Positions 3,554-17,282 of a DNA stretch of 20,367 nt are shown here, piece after piece. Below the pieces are notes generated by a model, which saw only the letters and a list, made by a program, of their open reading frames with translations, searched no databases and had not been told where the DNA came from. This stretch comes from a virus, in IMG/VR virus record IMGVR_UViG_3300009285_006381, positions 1 to 20,367 of that record, one strand, 5' to 3'. Position 1 is the first letter of the stretch. Every line of letters starts with the position of its first letter. Position numbers and translations under genes: made by a program.

Positions 3554-4934
3554 AGGTATAAACGTAGAAACTATTATCAAATTGAATAAATTTGTTCCAA
3601 GGTCGTACCAGCTTCCGTTACTTGATGCCCTTGAGAACAAAGGCTACAAGCGGGTTATTGGGGTTTTGCCTAGAAGAGCAGGTAAAGACATCTGTGCTTT
3701 TAATTTTTGCATACGTCAGTGCTTGAAAAAGGTCTGTATTATCTACTACTTGCTGCCAAAGTTAACACAGGCTCGTAAAGTTATCTGGGATGGCATCATG
3801 ATTGATGGTACATCTATTTTAAGCTTTATACCTCCAGAAGTTATAGCTAATAAGAACTCTCAGGAAATGAAGATACGATTTGTTAACGGGTCAATCCTTC
3901 AAATGGGTGGATCAGACTCATACGACAGACTGCTGGGTACTAATCCATATGGAATTGTGTATAGTGAGTTCAGCACGAGTGATCCAAAGAGCTACCAGTA
4001 CTTAAGGCCGATCCTTAGCGTCTCTGACGGGTGGGCACTGTTCATTAGTACGCCACGAGGTCGTAACCATTTCTACAATCTATACAATTTCGCTCTAGAA
4101 TCACCTGATTGGTTTGCGTATAAGTTAACTATTGAAGATACAAAGCATATAACGGTAGAGCAAGTTAAAAAAGAAGCAAGAGAAGATGCTGCTATCGATG
4201 GGATAGAGGGTGAAATCTCTGATGAAATGATACTTCAGGAGTATTATTGTGATTTTAATAGAGGCATAGAGGGATCTATATACTGTAAATATATAGATAA
4301 GATGAACTTGAATGGGCAGATAACTCATGTGCCTTATCAGTCTGGATTTCCTGTTAATGTCGCTATTGATATTGGAGTATCTGACGCCACTTGTATAATA
4401 TGGTTTCAGTGTATTGGTACGCTTGTCCATATAATAGATTGTTACTCTAATACAGGACAAGGCCTAGAGCATTACGCTAAGGTGATACAATCTAAAGACT
4501 ATGTGTATGGGCATTATTTTGCTCCATTTGATATCTCTGTTAAAGAGTGGGGATCTGGGCAAACACGTATTGAGAAAGCCAAAGAGCTTGGCATTCGCTT
4601 TAAGATAGCTACTAGGGTTTCGATAGAAGATGGTATTGAGTCTGTTCGTTCTGCTTTTAGTAAGATATGGATTGATGAGGTTAAATGCAAGCCTCTTTTA
4701 AAGTCACTTGAAGCATATCGATACGAATTTGATGAGAAGAATAAACGCTACAGGGACAATCCGTGCCACGACTGGTCATCTCATTACTGCGATGCAATGC
4801 GCTATTTGGCGGTTTCTATACATAGATGTAGAGACGGTGCTTCTCCAGAAGATTTGGATAAGAGGTATAATGAGGTGATGTATGGGTCTGGTAAGTTGGG
4901 TGGTTTTTTTAGTGATGGGCCTACAAACTATTGA
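3528..4934 (+). CDS. terL: Terminase large subunit (ATPase and nuclease)
   Basis: This is the motor that cuts concatemeric phage DNA and pumps it through the portal. From a GTG at 3528, with AGGGG 5 bases upstream, it has 468 residues, a usual length. An earlier TTG at 3510 is possible. The ATPase half has a Walker A loop of the terminase type, PRRAGKD (about residues 48-54). The Walker B strand is GIVYSEF, with Ser before the catalytic Glu as in many phage terminases, and the coupling motif is FISTPRG. The RNase H-like nuclease half begins with VAIDIGVSD and ends with DWSSHYCDAMRY, supplying the metal-binding acidic residues. Both halves look intact. Confidence 0.93.
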   Translation: MPEEKTTFKGINVETIIKLNKFVPRSYQLPLLDALENKGYKRVIGVLPRRAGKDICAFNFCIRQCLKKVCIIYYLLPKLTQARKVIWDGIMIDGTSILSFIPPEVIANKNSQEMKIRFVNGSILQMGGSDSYDRLLGTNPYGIVYSEFSTSDPKSYQYLRPILSVSDGWALFISTPRGRNHFYNLYNFALESPDWFAYKLTIEDTKHITVEQVKKEAREDAAIDGIEGEISDEMILQEYYCDFNRGIEGSIYCKYIDKMNLNGQITHVPYQSGFPVNVAIDIGVSDATCIIWFQCIGTLVHIIDCYSNTGQGLEHYAKVIQSKDYVYGHYFAPFDISVKEWGSGQTRIEKAKELGIRFKIATRVSIEDGIESVRSAFSKIWIDEVKCKPLLKSLEAYRYEFDEKNKRYRDNPCHDWSSHYCDAMRYLAVSIHRCRDGASPEDLDKRYNEVMYGSGKLGGFFSDGPTNY

Positions 4935-9079: not shown

Positions 9080-9134
9080 ATTTCCTTTTTTAGAAATCTA
9101 TAGCATATTAATAAATAGTTCATCACAATGCGCA

Positions 9135-9206
9135 GTGGGAATAGTTCAATTGGTAGAAGGTCTCCACTTAGGGGGGCAGATTTGGGTTCGATTCCCAATT
9201 CCCACT
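9135..9206 (+). tRNA. tRNA-like gene with irregular anticodon arm
   Basis: A 72-base cloverleaf can be drawn. The acceptor stem is GTGGGAA/TTCCCAC (7 perfect pairs, extendable to 9 with the flanking CA and TG). The D arm is GTTC/GAAG with one mismatch and GG in its loop. The T arm is TTGGG/CCCAA with loop TTCGATT. CCA is not encoded. The anticodon arm is ambiguous: TCTCC/GGGGG gives a 6-base loop ACTTAG, TCTCC/GGGGC gives a 7-base loop ACTTAGG (formal anticodon TTA, C instead of U33), and GTCTC/GGGGC gives an 8-base loop. No choice puts U33 in its normal place. It may be a degenerate or divergent tRNA; no amino acid is assigned. Confidence 0.6.
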
Positions 9207-9227
9207 GGCACCTAAAAAAGGAAATAT

Positions 9228-11037: not shown

Positions 11038-11460
11038 TTATTCGTCTTTGAATGTTATCTCTGAGTGATGCTTTTTGCAAAACCATATTACTTTTAGCCA
11101 GTCTTCTGGCTCATATGAAGTGTGGTGAGCTTCAGATTTTAGCTTTCCGCATTTACAGCATGGAAGTTTAGTTAATCTTTTATCTCTAAGGGCATTGCTA
11201 ACAGCTGTATGGGCAGATCGCTTAATAGCGTTTAACTCTCGCCATTTTGTGATAGCGTTATGTCGGACTTTTTTGCCCTTTAAGCTAGTTACCCATTTTC
11301 TATATGTTTGTTTTCCAGCTTTGCTTTTTCTGTATTTCTTGCATTGTGCATTATAACACAATTTACAGATAGATTTTGGGATATTGTTTATTTTATCCCA
11401 ATGAAAGAGAGAAAATGATTTTATTATTTTGCAGTTATTGCAAATTCTTGTGTTTTCCAT
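11038..11460 (-). CDS. HNH homing-type endonuclease
   Basis: The product has 140 residues from the ATG at 11460; the frame also opens at a GTG at 11499, but the conserved part begins at MENTRICNNC. Two zinc-binding modules are visible: C7, C10, C32, C35 at the N-terminus, and C101, C104, C128, H131 around the nuclease core. The core reads AHHTSYEPEDWLKVIWFC and then HH, the usual phage HNH arrangement. HNH enzymes nick or cut DNA and drive their own gene into related genomes. It is on the strand opposite to its neighbours, sits between endolysin and capsid gene, and is flanked by a short duplication of the endolysin end, all signs of insertion. Confidence 0.8.
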   Translation of the reverse strand: MENTRICNNCKIIKSFSLFHWDKINNIPKSICKLCYNAQCKKYRKSKAGKQTYRKWVTSLKGKKVRHNAITKWRELNAIKRSAHTAVSNALRDKRLTKLPCCKCGKLKSEAHHTSYEPEDWLKVIWFCKKHHSEITFKDE

Positions 11461-11496
11461 GGGTATATTGTATATCACTTCTAAATAAATAGCAAT

Positions 11497-11514
11497 CACT
11501 TTCCAGATGAATGA
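11497..11514 (+). repeat. Right copy of duplicated endolysin end
   Basis: CACTTTCCAGATGAATGA matches the end of the endolysin gene with one extra base and one change. Read in frame it gives HFPDE and a stop. It may be the original gene end displaced by the HNH insertion. Confidence 0.55.
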
Positions 11515-11547: not shown

Positions 11548-11609
11548 ATGAAGTATTTGCGCTTCATCTTTCTAATAGCCATAGGTTGTCTTCTTTATCC
11601 TATGGCTAT
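11548..11609 (+). other. Two hairpins in the gap before the capsid gene
   Basis: The gap of about 400 bp between the HNH gene and the capsid gene holds no credible gene. Its first part has ATGAAG/CTTCAT (11548-11553 and 11562-11567) and a longer perfect 11-bp arm, ATAGCCATAGG/CCTATGGCTAT (11575-11585 and 11599-11609) with a 13-base loop. No T run follows, so these look like RNA structures rather than terminators. Confidence 0.5.
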
Positions 11610-11634
11610 ATAATTATAGGTGATTATTACGGTT

Positions 11635-11676
11635 GCTCCTGGTTTGGCCCTACCTTATCCAGGGGCTTCTTTTTTG
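11635..11676 (+). terminator. Rho-independent terminator upstream of the capsid transcript
   Basis: GCTCCTGG (11635-11642) pairs with CCAGGGGC (11659-11666), one G-U pair included, and a T-rich run (TTCTTTTTTG) follows directly. It would stop transcription coming from the scaffold and endolysin side. Confidence 0.7.
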
Positions 11677-11701
11677 TAGTTGCTTGTAAGTTTTTGGATT
11701 T

Positions 11702-11710
11702 TGGTATTAT
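11702..11710 (+). promoter_or_regulatory. Candidate extended -10 promoter for the capsid gene
   Basis: TGGTATTAT is a TGn extended -10 element (TATTAT) of the housekeeping sigma type. The upstream -35 is poor (TTGCTT at 19 bases or TTGTAA at 15 bases). It lies between a terminator and the tandem hairpins; the predicted start, near 11717, would place those hairpins at the very 5' end of the mRNA. Confidence 0.4.
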
Positions 11711-11720
11711 ACTTATTGTG

Positions 11721-11801
11721 ACGTACGGAGATTCGTCAACTCCTTCAACGTACCGAGAGTCGTTACCTCGTCGGACTTACGGAGATTAGTCCCCTCCTTT
11801 C
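11721..11801 (+). repeat. Three tandem 27-bp hairpin repeats
   Basis: Units at 11721-11747, 11748-11774 and 11775-11801 begin AC(G/T)TAC and each contains a 4-bp inverted arm around a 9-base loop. The arms are GGAG/CTCC in units 1 and 3 and CGAG/CTCG in unit 2, so both sides change together and pairing is kept. They lie about 100 bases upstream of the capsid start codon. The period also equals 9 codons, but no convincing gene runs through them. Confidence 0.65.
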
Positions 11802-11813
11802 GGATGTAAAATC

Positions 11814-11831
11814 AAGACTTCATCCAGTCTT
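11814..11831 (+). other. Hairpin in the capsid gene leader
   Basis: AAGACT and AGTCTT form a perfect 6-bp stem with a 6-base loop, 70 bases before the capsid start codon. No T run follows. The remaining bases up to 11901 are AT-rich, with AAGGGA as the ribosome site. Confidence 0.4.
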
Positions 11832-11901
11832 AAGGTAATAAATCTTTCAAATTAGCAACATTAGTTGTGACTTTGATTAATTATTTAACTTAAGGGAAAA
11901 C

Positions 11902-12251
11902 ATGGCTATAACTACTACAGCCCTTTTACCTGCTCCAGTACAGCAAAGTTTCAGTTTGAAATTGCTAGCGGTACCGGTTCCAAATATGATTCATAAAATT
12001 CCAGCCCTACTTAAAACTATGCCTAGGAATGGTGGAACAACTCTTCGTATGAGAAGATATTCACCTTTGGGCGCAGCAATGGTGGCACTAGGAGATACGG
12101 GCGCAACTCCTCCGGCCCAAACTCTAACTGCTGTTGACATAGATGCTACAATTCAATTTTATGGAACATACTTAATCTTGAATGAGCAATGTACATTACA
12201 AAACCAAGACCCTGTTCTTAACGAAGCAACAGTGAGATTGGGAGTGTCCCT
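11902..12251 (+). CDS. Major capsid protein, N4-gp56 family, exon 1
   Basis: Exon 1 encodes residues 1-116 and two bases of codon 117. AAGGGA lies 5 bases before the ATG. The N-terminus (LPAPVQQSFSLKLLAVPVP), the KTMPRNGGTTLRMRRYSPL segment and the QFYGTYLILNEQ strand match the layout of N4-gp56-type capsid proteins (HK97 fold), which build the icosahedral shell. Without splicing the frame continues into the intron and stops at 12282, giving a 126-residue fragment that lacks most of the fold. Joining base 12251 to 12960 gives 951 bases, 316 residues, in frame. Confidence 0.88.
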
Positions 12252-12959
12252 AAATGGCTTGGGGACTTTAAACTTTGCCTAAATACCTGGAAACTCTGAC
12301 CGCGTAATGGCGAAGACAATCAGATGCAAGCATCTAAATTGTTAACGGAGAACGATGATTACATTGAGAAATTTTTTCCTTACATTCACTTCGAAATTTA
12401 AGAATATCGCAAGATATCTTCTTATTATTTCCTGGTTTACTTATAAAAGACTCTCTAAGTTTAATCATCAATTCAGCTTGTTCTTTTTTACAGGTAAGAT
12501 GTGGGATAAGGCCTTTGCATATTGGAATAATATCGGCTTTAGAAAGAACCCATTCGTATTTCATTTTCCAATGCGGATGCTTTTTGTCGGTTCTTTTATA
12601 AACAAGGCCTCCAAAATTATTCAACAACCATCTAATCATTCTCTCATCAGTATTTACTACCATAATACGATGTCTGAAATGAGGAGCTGGACTAATATAG
12701 AAAGTTCCCTCTCCATCTACAATACCTGCAAGATAAATAAACTGTTTTTCTGTAAACATATTAAATCCTTTGTTAAAAAGTTTAGTCTTAGACTATACAA
12801 GTATAACATAGATTTAAAAAGAGTGCAGCAGCAGAGACTAAACGGTGAAGACGCAATAAAATGCGTATGCTATAGTCCAAACACCATAGAAATATGGTGA
12901 GAGGGGATTAACAAGACCCTCCGCCTAAAGTGAATTTAGGTCATAAAAGTAATAGATTG
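12252..12959 (+). mobile_element. Group I intron in the major capsid gene
   Basis: The intron has 708 bases. P1: exon GTCCCT (12246-12251) pairs with GGGGAC (12261-12266), with the required U-G pair at the cut. P10: CTT just before that guide pairs with AAG at the start of exon 2. P3: ACCG (12299-12302) with CGGT (12843-12846). P4: GACAAT with ATTGTT; P5: AGATG/CATCT. P7: GACTA (12836-12840) with TAGTC (12873-12877) inside classic R and S elements. P8: ACGCA/TGCGT. P9: CACCATA/TATGGTG with a GAAA loop, then two more hairpins (GAGGG/CCCTC, CCTAAA/TTTAGG). The last base is G (12959). It carries a LAGLIDADG gene on the opposite strand. Confidence 0.92.
12334..12759 (-). CDS. LAGLIDADG homing endonuclease, antisense within the intron
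   Basis: The 141 residues have one LAGLIDADG helix, LAGIVDGEGTF at residues 10-20, with E17 as the likely catalytic acid. One motif implies a homodimer that cuts a near-palindromic site. The following parts (HFRHRIMVVNTDERMIRWLL, FGGLVYKRTDKKHPHWK, the EW.L pattern) fit the family fold, and the length is normal for a single-motif enzyme. AAAGGA lies 6 bases before the ATG, so it has its own ribosome site on the minus strand. It is transcribed against the capsid mRNA. Its last codons and TAG stop overlap the P4-P5 strand of the ribozyme. Confidence 0.88.
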   Translation of the reverse strand: MFTEKQFIYLAGIVDGEGTFYISPAPHFRHRIMVVNTDERMIRWLLNNFGGLVYKRTDKKHPHWKMKYEWVLSKADIIPICKGLIPHLTCKKEQAELMIKLRESFISKPGNNKKISCDILKFRSECKEKISQCNHRSPLTI

Positions 12960-13560
12960 AAGACAAACAGAGGATCAACTAACAAGAGATATGTTGGCTG
13001 GTACAGCGGCGTTTGTAAACTGCGTTGGCGGAGTGAACGGTGACAACCCTACAGAATTAACAGAAACTGACGTTGATGATATAACACGTTCTTTATTGGG
13101 AAGTGACGCTTATACCGTGCTTGACAATATTGAGGGTGCAGACAAGATGGGAACAGCACCTGTAAAAGATGCCTACTTTGCTCTTTGTCATACAGATTTG
13201 ACAAAAGATATGAACAGAGTGAATAGCTTCCAACACAAGAATCAATATCCATCTCCTACAGCAGCATTACGTTCTGAGTGGGGAGCAATTGGTAACTTGA
13301 GATTCTTAGTTTCATCTATTGGATCTTCAGTTGCGAATGCATCTGCTTTGGGCGCTAGAGTGTATAATATCTTCTGTGTTGGCATGGAAGCATATGCATG
13401 TATAGAGCAAGACGGATATAGCGCATCTTTCATATATAGACCACCTCTATATGATGGACCACTCGCATTAAACGCAAGTGTTGGCTACAAGTTCGCTGAA
13501 GTACCGCGTATATTGAACGATTTATGGATACTAAACCTACGTTGCACATTGGCAAACTAA
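12960..13560 (+). CDS. Major capsid protein, N4-gp56 family, exon 2
   Basis: Exon 2 completes the Leu-117 codon (CT plus A) and continues RQTEDQLTRDMLAGTAAF, a typical continuation of this family after the GVSL that ends exon 1. It encodes residues 117-316. Visible features are the long helix TEDQLTRDMLAG, then ALRSEWGAIGNLRFLVSS, a usual hallmark region of these capsid proteins, and a C-terminal DGPLALNASVGYKF strand pair. An ATG at 12991 lies inside the exon, but starting there would remove part of the helix. The next gene starts 9 bases after the stop, with GGAG overlapping the gap. Confidence 0.88.
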
Positions 13561-15541: not shown

Positions 15542-16567
15542 ATGGCAGATTCTTCACTAGCTGCGATACGTACCAAAGTTCGCAGACTGACTCGTAGCTT
15601 GTCTCCGGCACAATTAACCGATGCCCAGATAGATGAGTATATAAATACATTTGTTTTGTATGATTTCCCAGAACATTTAAGACTATCTAATTTAAGAAAA
15701 TCATTTCAGTTTTTTACTGAGCCGTATGTGGATGTTTACGATCCTGATTCTTATGGTGTCAATACACCCTTATATCAATTTAATCAAAAGAATATAACAG
15801 TTCATCCACCTTTTTATGTGGCTGGATATCAGGCTACATTCTTAGAATCTAGAGAGATTCTTTATGGAATGTATCCAAAGGTATCTACTATATTTCAAAT
15901 TGGTTCAGGATCTAATCCTCCTGTGTTGCAATATACTGGCGTGTTGCCAAACTTAAATCCAGGTACTTGTATTATTAGGGGCAATGTTGCTTTCAGTTCC
16001 ATTGACGTTAATGGTGATGGCTTAGTTATGGCAGATTTTCCATTTAATGCAGAATTTGGTCAACTTGGTGTTCCTGGTCAACCAGTTGTTGGACCTTTAG
16101 ATCCAAACAACTATATAAATTATGTTACTGGCGACTATACAGTTACTTTCGCAACAGCTCCAGAGCAAGGTGCGGCTGTAAATTGTCAGTATGTGCCAGT
16201 ACAAACATCTAGACCTACAACTGTATGTTTCTTTGATGGAAGTTTTATAGTAAGACCAGTGCCAGATCAATCATATCCAATCAATATGGAAGTATATGTT
16301 AGGCCTACAGAGTTGTTAGTTGCCGGTGGATCTCCAGAGCTTGAAGAGTGGTGGCAGTATATAGCGATCGGCAGCTCGCTGAAAGTTTTCCAAGACCGTA
16401 TGGATATGGAAAGTGTTGCTCTATTAATGCCAGAGTTCAAAAAGCAAGAATGTTTGATTAACCGAAGAACTATAGTACAATATGCAAGCCAGCGTACTGC
16501 CACCATATATACTGAGAACAATAATCAAACTATTCCATTTGGACCTAACAGTAATGGTGGTTTTTAA
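15542..16567 (+). CDS. Putative head-tail adaptor or tail protein, 341 aa
   Basis: AGGAG precedes the ATG. The N-terminus is helical (SSLAAIRTKVRRLTRSLS, then LTDAQIDEYINTFVLYDFPEHL), as in head-to-tail adaptors, and the rest is beta-rich with YINYVTGDYTVTFATAP and a VCFFDGSFIVRPVPDQSYP strand region. The last third has a helical PELEEWWQYIAIGSSLKVFQDR segment. The gene lies between the capsid and tail-hub genes where adaptor (P22 gp4-like) and nozzle proteins are expected. No firm family match is claimed. An HNH gene follows directly. Confidence 0.6.
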   Translation: MADSSLAAIRTKVRRLTRSLSPAQLTDAQIDEYINTFVLYDFPEHLRLSNLRKSFQFFTEPYVDVYDPDSYGVNTPLYQFNQKNITVHPPFYVAGYQATFLESREILYGMYPKVSTIFQIGSGSNPPVLQYTGVLPNLNPGTCIIRGNVAFSSIDVNGDGLVMADFPFNAEFGQLGVPGQPVVGPLDPNNYINYVTGDYTVTFATAPEQGAAVNCQYVPVQTSRPTTVCFFDGSFIVRPVPDQSYPINMEVYVRPTELLVAGGSPELEEWWQYIAIGSSLKVFQDRMDMESVALLMPEFKKQECLINRRTIVQYASQRTATIYTENNNQTIPFGPNSNGGF

Positions 16568-16589
16568 TAATAAAAACTATAGGGATTAC

Positions 16590-17282
16590 ATGAAAAAAAT
16601 TTGTCGCATATGCAATGTTATCTTGGATTCGAGTAATTATATTATTGTTAAAAAGAAATATGTTAGATCTATCTGCAGAAAATGCAAAAGCAGGATGGCG
16701 GTAGAAAATGCTAGAAAACTAGGTAGTCTTAGAAGAAAATATGCAAATGAGTATGCGAGACGAGTTGGAAGAGTAAGAGAATATCCATGCGAACAATGTG
16801 GAAAACTTTGTTATAAAAAGTGCTCTAAAGCTTTTTGTTCTGATCAATGTAGATTTTTATCTTATGTTAATGTTGCAGATTCTTGTTGGATTTGGACTGG
16901 TGGAATAAATAGACGTGGATATGGTAAATTTTCTCTTTTCCCTATAAAATCTATTTCTGCTCATAGAGCTTCTTATATTTTATTTAATGGAGAGATTCCT
17001 GAAGGAAAGTGTGTTTGCCATCAATGTGACAATCCTAGGTGCGTTAAACCTGCGCACTTATGGATTGGAACTACGCAAGAAAATACGCAGGATATGATTA
17101 ATAAGGGAAGAAGTTTGCACGGTGAAAATCATTTAAAAGCAAAAATAACAAAAGAAGATGTATTAAAGATACGAGAACTAGGATCTAAAGGCATGGCTCA
17201 GTGGAAAATTGGGGAAATGTTTAATTTAACTGCTGGTCATGTTAATAATATAATTAAAAAAAGAGCGTGGCAGCACGTTTAA
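16590..17282 (+). CDS. HNH endonuclease with zinc fingers and C-terminal DNA-binding region
   Basis: The ATG at 16590 has TAGGGAT upstream; the frame is open further up only inside the preceding gene. Order of parts: zinc site C5, C8, C29, C32; a second Cys cluster with C67, C70, C83, C87; the HNH core with AHRASY (H125) and CHQCDNPRCVKPAHLWIGT (H144, N148, H156), of the HNH_3 type; then a helix-turn-helix-like tail at about 186-225 (ITKEDVLKIRELGSKGMAQW). This is a freestanding homing-type enzyme placed between two tail genes on the same strand. Its own stop overlaps the ribosome site of the next gene, a neat insertion. Confidence 0.87.
   Translation: MKKICRICNVILDSSNYIIVKKKYVRSICRKCKSRMAVENARKLGSLRRKYANEYARRVGRVREYPCEQCGKLCYKKCSKAFCSDQCRFLSYVNVADSCWIWTGGINRRGYGKFSLFPIKSISAHRASYILFNGEIPEGKCVCHQCDNPRCVKPAHLWIGTTQENTQDMINKGRSLHGENHLKAKITKEDVLKIRELGSKGMAQWKIGEMFNLTAGHVNNIIKKRAWQHV

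Follow-up and report, generated by a model that had tools for sequence, protein, structure and literature searches.

We describe a row of small RNA pseudoknots in the leader of the major capsid protein (MCP) gene of an uncultured tailed phage, and we propose that it probably controls translation of the capsid mRNA in cis. This estimate is drawn from sequence comparison and applies to the control itself, not to a part played in it by ribosomal protein S1. The DNA analyzed (the window) is the whole 20,367-base stretch of IMG/VR record IMGVR_UViG_3300009285_006381, which is assigned to a tailed phage by a P22-type portal, a terminase, and an MCP of phrog_1357. Comparison with related leaders establishes the pseudoknot units, their tandem arrangement, their tie to the capsid gene, and, in a large minority of leaders, a helix between the Shine-Dalgarno region and the 3′ arm of the last pseudoknot.

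Tandem pseudoknots in the capsid leader

A preliminary description of the window, made from the letters alone, had noted three tandem units of 27-bp period upstream of the capsid gene, read each as a hairpin with a 4-bp arm around 9 bases, and pointed to a flip of the outer pair in the middle unit. The repeats, the arms, and the flip were all recovered; the hairpin fold was not. The copies start at 11720, 11747, and 11774 and are 73 to 85% alike, and the arms around 9 bases are present in all three (GGAG/CTCC, CGAG/CTCG, and GGAG/CTCC in units 1, 2, and 3, respectively). A second 4-bp helix (GACG/CGTC, AACG/CGTT, and GACT/AGTC, respectively) interleaves with the first in every unit, which makes each an H-type pseudoknot. 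The lengths are 4 for stem 1, 3 for loop 1, 4 for stem 2, 3 for loop 2, 4 for the 3′ arm of stem 1, 2 for loop 3, and 4 for the 3′ arm of stem 2 (4-3-4-3-4-2-4), and 24 of 24 pairs over the three units are Watson-Crick. The single compensatory change claimed earlier is real, and the newly recognized helix adds two more, giving three two-sided changes between units. The units are as follows.

11720 to 11743, plus strand: pseudoknot 1, from the exact-geometry scan (stem 1, 11720-11723/11734-11737; stem 2, 11727-11730/11740-11743)
11747 to 11770, plus strand: pseudoknot 2 (stem 1, 11747-11750/11761-11764, outer G-C changed to A-U; stem 2, 11754-11757/11767-11770, outer G-C changed to C-G)
11774 to 11797, plus strand: pseudoknot 3 (stem 1, 11774-11777/11788-11791, inner G-C changed to U-A; stem 2, 11781-11784/11794-11797)

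Over the whole window, the exact geometry occurs three times on the plus strand, at these positions only, and once on the minus strand (14585). When 11600-11901 was shuffled, one exact pseudoknot appeared in 98 of 20,000 sequences and two appeared in none (0 of 20,000). Tandem Repeats Finder at a score of 30 did not report the array.

Arrays and covariation among capsid leaders

A search of IMG/VR viral contigs with the first exon of the MCP gave 80 loci, the best 80 of at least 591, and these together with the window yielded 78 leaders of at least 130 nucleotides (nt), or 65 once near-identical ones were removed. A second, more distant retrieval of 80 loci contributed 40 leaders that were not near-identical to the first set or to each other. 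Using a strict scanner that accepts Watson-Crick pairs only and has no preferred letters, we found at least two pseudoknots in 71 of the 105 nonredundant leaders, compared to 2.7% of shuffled leaders. Permissive scanners had a high background (shuffled mean of about 1 per leader), and our claims therefore rest on the anchor-only, 24-mer, strict, and exact-geometry analyses. Arrays contain 2 to 8 units, with 5 in locus L024 and 8 in L163. The L163 array (4589-4780), in which seven near-identical 24-nt units are followed by a divergent last one, is by its sequence a recent tandem expansion. By eye, ACC...GGT-type first stems replace CG...CG in L011, L012, L014, L051, and L276, with the pseudoknot layout kept.

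The 21 leaders in which the strict scanner was silent were printed and read. In 14, the scaffold gene ends 10 to 56 nt before the MCP start, leaving no room for an array, and 6 (L020, L031, L063, L074, L276, and L285) are by eye arrays that contain bulges or mismatched pairs, have longer loops, or use different anchor letters; the remaining leader, L247, gave no clear array call by eye. In a scaffold-profile test of all leaders, 14 of the 16 with a scaffold stop within 60 nt of the MCP had no array. The array goes with capsid genes that have their own leader.

The preliminary description had proposed that pairing rather than sequence is kept, and had named unpaired drift of the arms in relatives as the contrary outcome. 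Such drift was looked for in the homologous leaders and did not occur; both helices covary. Among 133 units selected by the letters CG[TC]A...TCG alone, with pairing ignored, the two outer pairs of stem 1 were Watson-Crick in 115 and 105 units (shuffle means, 58.8 and 59.7; maxima, 76 and 74), and stem 2 at its predicted offsets was 82% Watson-Crick, compared to 22 to 40% out of register. The independent 40 leaders gave 40/46 and 38/46 for the outer pairs of stem 1 and 75% for stem 2. We further aligned 46 distinct 24-mers defined by anchor spacing, 37 from this phage group and 9 of 10 from a second group introduced below (one of the ten second-group 25-mers was omitted from this alignment, A1, because of an overlapping false anchor). 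The pseudoknot structure pairs 84.8% of cells in this set (shuffles, 71.0; standard deviation [sd], 1.2), with 58 two-sided changes (20.8 in shuffles) and a covariation score of 0.439 (0.194 shuffled; 0.08 to 0.15 slid), and 0 of 500 shuffles reached any of these three values; the shuffles do not take relatedness out, but the slid controls do retain it. In the same 46 24-mers, 6 pairs showed a two-sided change at least once, a count that does not stand apart from shuffles (5.6).

A hairpin-only reading and a reading as DNA operator repeats were both dropped, since the second helix covaries as strongly as the first. Apart from the shortness of the arms, little speaks for chance or for a DNA-level repeat (operator sites) without an RNA fold: covariation and the shuffle counts contradict it, the repeats are strand specific and lie 3′ of a promoter-like box, and interleaved pairing is not a feature of a double-stranded DNA operator, so that we regard this explanation as extremely improbable. 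It is also quite improbable that a unit is a bistable element, whose helices form as alternative hairpins rather than together as one pseudoknot. Both helices are conserved and comparative data cannot show their coexistence, but they use different nucleotides, so that nothing forces a choice, and the loop lengths (3, 3, and 2) recur.

The tie to the capsid gene was also found when no protein information was used. Three motif patterns yielded 79 loci, and an MCP profile match lay downstream on the same strand in 70 of them, in some after a gene split. Among the nine others, L100 and L109 visibly enter a capsid start at the contig end, the contigs of L123, L138, and L144 end within 60 to 287 nt, L120, L132, and L142 are single units with no tandem partners, and L085 has a different capsid. 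The loosest scan returned 13 stretches, comprising three new capsid leaders (L194, L198, and L201), L085 again, and nine single matches without an array, mostly in apparent coding DNA. A lone perfect unit at L204:4949-4971 lies just upstream of a scaffold-like open reading frame (ORF); it may have arisen by chance or be a related element in front of a different gene.

L085, a GC-rich phage, carries three units ahead of a 449-amino-acid MCP of phrog_14242; compared with the first MCP, this protein shows no significant similarity (best E value, 0.40). At the strict threshold, at least two units were found in 9 of 12 loci with an MCP of the L085 type, compared to 1.0% of shuffles. The 12 include L085's own record and two loci with the same leader (L173 and L174), and a few called units, for example two in L164 and another in L167, are off the array register. 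As the start of L169 is uncertain, 330 nt rather than 200 were read there; L176, at 26% identity, was omitted. In this second group, the array follows a scaffold-like ORF within a few to tens of nucleotides, and hence no promoter is visible directly before it. The letters CG-UA...U-CG are strongly constrained across units and across the two groups.

When the window and seven other phage records were scanned over their whole length, clusters of at least three units appeared only at the MCP leader, plus a mirror of the array on the other strand; the arrays of two of the seven (G009 and G014) were below threshold. No cluster of at least three units was present in the stretches read of six comparison records with a related terminase or capsid (Acetobacter phiAX1, Pelagibacter HTVC010P, two Manatee Spring records, Stenotrophomonas BUCT708, and Arthrobacter Jasmine). 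A collection of 50,697 phages held no close relative of the MCP, with two matches, both below 30% identity.

Three relatives lie in contigs titled as metagenome bins. L082 (Parachlamydiaceae) has two strict units and a third by eye; in L083 (Simkaniaceae), the MCP lies directly behind the preceding gene and there is no array; L084 (Methylococcaceae) has two anchored strict units and a split gene. It is possible that L082 and L083 are tailed phages of environmental chlamydiae, a host link that is a lead only, because binning errors are common for phage contigs.

Link to the Shine-Dalgarno sequence and proposed role

The element is longer than the 11721-11801 first given for it, spanning 11720 to about 11897 and reaching the Shine-Dalgarno (SD) sequence. 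The remainder of the leader contains the following features.

11802 to 11831, plus strand: pseudoknot 4, the last and larger unit (stem 1, GGATG 11802-11806/CATCC 11821-11825; stem 2, AAGACT 11814-11819/AGTCTT 11826-11831)
11829 to 11894, plus strand: SD-region hairpin, an inverted repeat (CTTAAG 11829-11834 with CTTAAG 11889-11894)
11892 to 11897, plus strand: SD sequence AAGGGA before ATG 11902, from sequence

The second CTTAAG lies just before and within AAGGGA. Nucleotides CTT 11829-11831 belong both to the 3′ arm of stem 2 in pseudoknot 4 and to the SD-region hairpin, and the two structures would therefore compete, being partly exclusive. Among relatives, the helix between the 3′ arm of the last unit and the SD region averages 4.80 bp, compared to 3.91 (sd, 0.12) with tails swapped. 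CTT is present in the stem 2 arm of 34 of 61 last units, compared to 20 of 108 other units, and arm and SD region show matched letter changes (CTTAAG/CTTAAG, CTTAAAG/CTTTAAG, CTTGAAA/TTTCAAG, and CTTAGA/TCTAAG). In L164, L165, and L172 of the second group, the last arm, as read from the sequence, can pair with the SD region by other letters, CCGTTGAG with CTCAACGG. The comparison supports the view that in a large minority of leaders, the last pseudoknot and masking of the SD are alternatives.

On this basis, the capsid mRNA leader would act in cis as a control RNA, built from 2 to 8 small H-type pseudoknots one after another, that sets capsid translation. The nascent RNA would fold the last pseudoknot first, keeping its arm off the SD (the open state); were that pseudoknot undone, the arm could mask the SD. 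At the upstream pseudoknots, a 30S subunit/S1 or a regulatory protein would dock and be kept beside the switch, and copy number would tune the strength. Action of the array in cis on capsid translation or mRNA fate is the most likely interpretation, and by analogy with tisB (see below), we lean somewhat toward a positive, standby-type role rather than phage-protein repression.

Several points weigh against this proposal. Capsid genes without an array exist, and because the array is missing where the MCP directly follows the scaffold gene, MCP translation as such does not need the element. No more than 24 of 61 leaders show a clear SD helix, and the single-helix energies of window units 1 to 3 are weak (−0.8 to −3.8 kcal/mol, helices taken singly). 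Docking of 30S/S1 by the upstream units is suggested by analogy with tisB, and conservation of the letters CGUA...UCG may instead mean that the ligand is a specific protein.

The last of these points bears on an operator model, in which a capsid, scaffold, or small regulatory protein of the phage, acting autogenously or otherwise, attaches cooperatively to the repeated pseudoknots and thereby represses capsid synthesis or sets its timing, in the manner of gp32 in T-even phages. The constrained CG-UA...U-CG letters shared by two phage groups, the repetition, which suits cooperative binding, and the precedent of the gp32 leader pseudoknot (PMC3014915) favor it. However, the anchors drift in some leaders (CGCA, CGAA, and ACCCA...GGT forms), and because two dissimilar capsids share the unit, the capsid protein is unlikely to be the common ligand. 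On balance, we consider this model rather unlikely, if worth keeping in view.

A role at the 5′ end was judged from the promoter-like features upstream of the array.

11635 to 11675, plus strand: terminator-like hairpin with a T tract that ends the upstream unit, read from sequence (missed by a hairpin scan limited to loops of 3 to 8)
11684 to 11689, plus strand: −35-like TTGTAA, 18 nt before the −10-like box and near chance on its own
11708 to 11713, plus strand: −10-like TATACT, with a predicted start near 11720

The extended −10 placed at 11702-11710 in the preliminary description gives way to TATACT, whose position makes the first base of pseudoknot 1 the predicted start. A −10-like box lies within 16 nt in 44 of the 63 leaders with a callable first unit (37.1 in shuffles), and in 25 of these 44 it lies 5 to 7 nt before the first pseudoknot (about 6 expected from shuffles), a spacing that puts the start site at the first bases of that pseudoknot. 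The earlier suggestion of a 5′-terminal array thus stands insofar as many relatives begin the array at the expected mRNA start, whereas a purely 5′-terminal role is doubtful, because in the second group the array comes so soon after the preceding gene that a promoter has hardly any space, or none. These data bear on the possibility that the array is a 5′-terminal structural cap that shields a highly abundant mRNA against degradation (RNase E/5′-end sensing or a 5′ exonuclease). The 5- to 7-nt spacing, the terminator-like element preceding the array in the window, and the copy number of up to 8 (L163) are in its favor, but it fits the second group less well, does not need the tie of the last unit to the SD, and draws on a box that is almost as frequent in shuffles, with only the spacing being special. 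We therefore think protection of the 5′ end unlikely.

Even less probable is that the nascent array acts on RNA polymerase as a put-like antitermination element for read-through of the long late operon. In its favor, the array in the records examined occupies the sense strand where the structural-gene transcript begins; against this, the records scanned have one array per genome, before the capsid gene only, no array is found when the capsid gene follows the scaffold gene, and the SD link is left unexplained. We regard this as very improbable.

Returning to translational control, a broader form of that proposal, which we offer tentatively and rather doubt than assert, is that the arrays may constitute a new RNA class, a modular array of 2 to 8 minimal pseudoknots that would make translation of the virion's most abundant protein tunable. 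Its last module would be an anti-anti-SD switch in which the 5′ strand of stem 2 mimics the SD. Since lineages of uncultured tailed phages with unrelated capsids share the array, the RNA module would have a history of transfer or persistence separate from that of the gene under its control.

Phages need hundreds of capsid subunits and few of other parts, and to our knowledge, how this stoichiometry is set is open for most phages. A widespread compact RNA element fixed before the capsid gene bears on this question. Its natural series of 2 to 8 copies makes a dose-response directly testable in reporters, work on RNA folding gains a large collection of strongly covarying minimal H-type pseudoknots, and the array is possibly a portable translation part.

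Known systems and neighboring features

The preliminary description knew of no described element of this kind, and our searches agree: the 4,227 families of Rfam 15 gave no match to the array (at the gathering score, the window gives a tRNA only, and at E value thresholds, weak matches only), and searches of the open-access PMC literature yielded no account of arrayed pseudoknots in the leaders of phage capsid genes. Structured leader RNAs and tandem pseudoknots are kinds known already; this form in phage capsid leaders appears to be new.

Consecutive pseudoknots also make up domains of plant virus 3′ untranslated regions. Another string occurs in tmRNA (PMC1168896). Unlike the capsid arrays, neither the tmRNA string nor the plant virus domains lie in mRNA leaders or consist of variable-number copies of one unit.

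The nearest described architecture is the STAXI RNA motif (RF01728; PMC2864571), which shares with the capsid array the tandem pseudoknot repeats. STAXI lies near ssb, topoisomerase, antirestriction, or integrase genes, whereas the array precedes a capsid gene in 70 of 79 motif loci, and its repeats have UUCG tetraloops, whereas TTCG in many of our units spans loop 2 and stem 1 and forms no tetraloop. The STAXI covariance model had no match at an E value of ≤10 in 9 of 9 array-bearing records, in a search that had no positive control (0 of 369 genomes plus controls). Membership in STAXI was rejected on the grounds of no model match and the other gene context.

In Escherichia coli tisB mRNA, binding of 30S/S1 ahead of a masked SD requires a 5′ pseudoknot (PMC7708055). 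A likeness may lie in the H-type pseudoknot upstream of a masked SD: the capsid leaders have the pseudoknots, and 24 of 61 have an SD helix of at least 6 bp. The tisB pseudoknot differs in being single and larger (stem 1, 9; stem 2, 5), in a toxin mRNA, and about 100 nt from the ribosome binding site (RBS), and the abstract and discussion of that source state for it neither an array nor an overlap between a last pseudoknot and an SD arm. Gene 32 of phages T2 and T4 likewise has an mRNA leader pseudoknot that takes part in translational control (PMC3014915); there, a single pseudoknot precedes an A+U-rich RBS and the single-stranded-DNA-binding protein represses autogenously, in contrast to the arrays of 2 to 8 units found here.

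The MCP gene starts at ATG 11902, is split after 12282, and resumes near 12991.

11902 to 12282, plus strand: first exon of the MCP, phrog_1357 (ORF list and profile search)
12991 to 13560, plus strand: remainder of the MCP, phrog_1357 positions 176-338 (profile search)

The interruption (12283-12990) contains a subthreshold group I intron match (RF00028; 23.2 bits; 12737-12899) and an antisense ORF (12334-12759; phrog_5046, endonuclease). A role of the array as part of a group I intron was rejected, as the weak RF00028 match sits in the split capsid gene, far from the array. In several relatives, the capsid frame begins 600 to 2,500 nt past the array, and the capsid genes of this phage group may thus be an intron hot spot.

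Elsewhere in the window, a tRNA gene was found on the plus strand at 9134-9207 (RF00005; 42.8 bits), to which ARAGORN assigns no amino acid and in which it reads a four-base anticodon, ctta; if real, this tRNA could read UAAG or could be an altered tRNA. An endonuclease-like ORF (phrog_2340) lies on the opposite strand at 11038-11499, between the late genes and the capsid leader, and an HNH_3 homing-endonuclease-like ORF on the plus strand at 16482-17282 overlaps the end of ORF 15542-16567.
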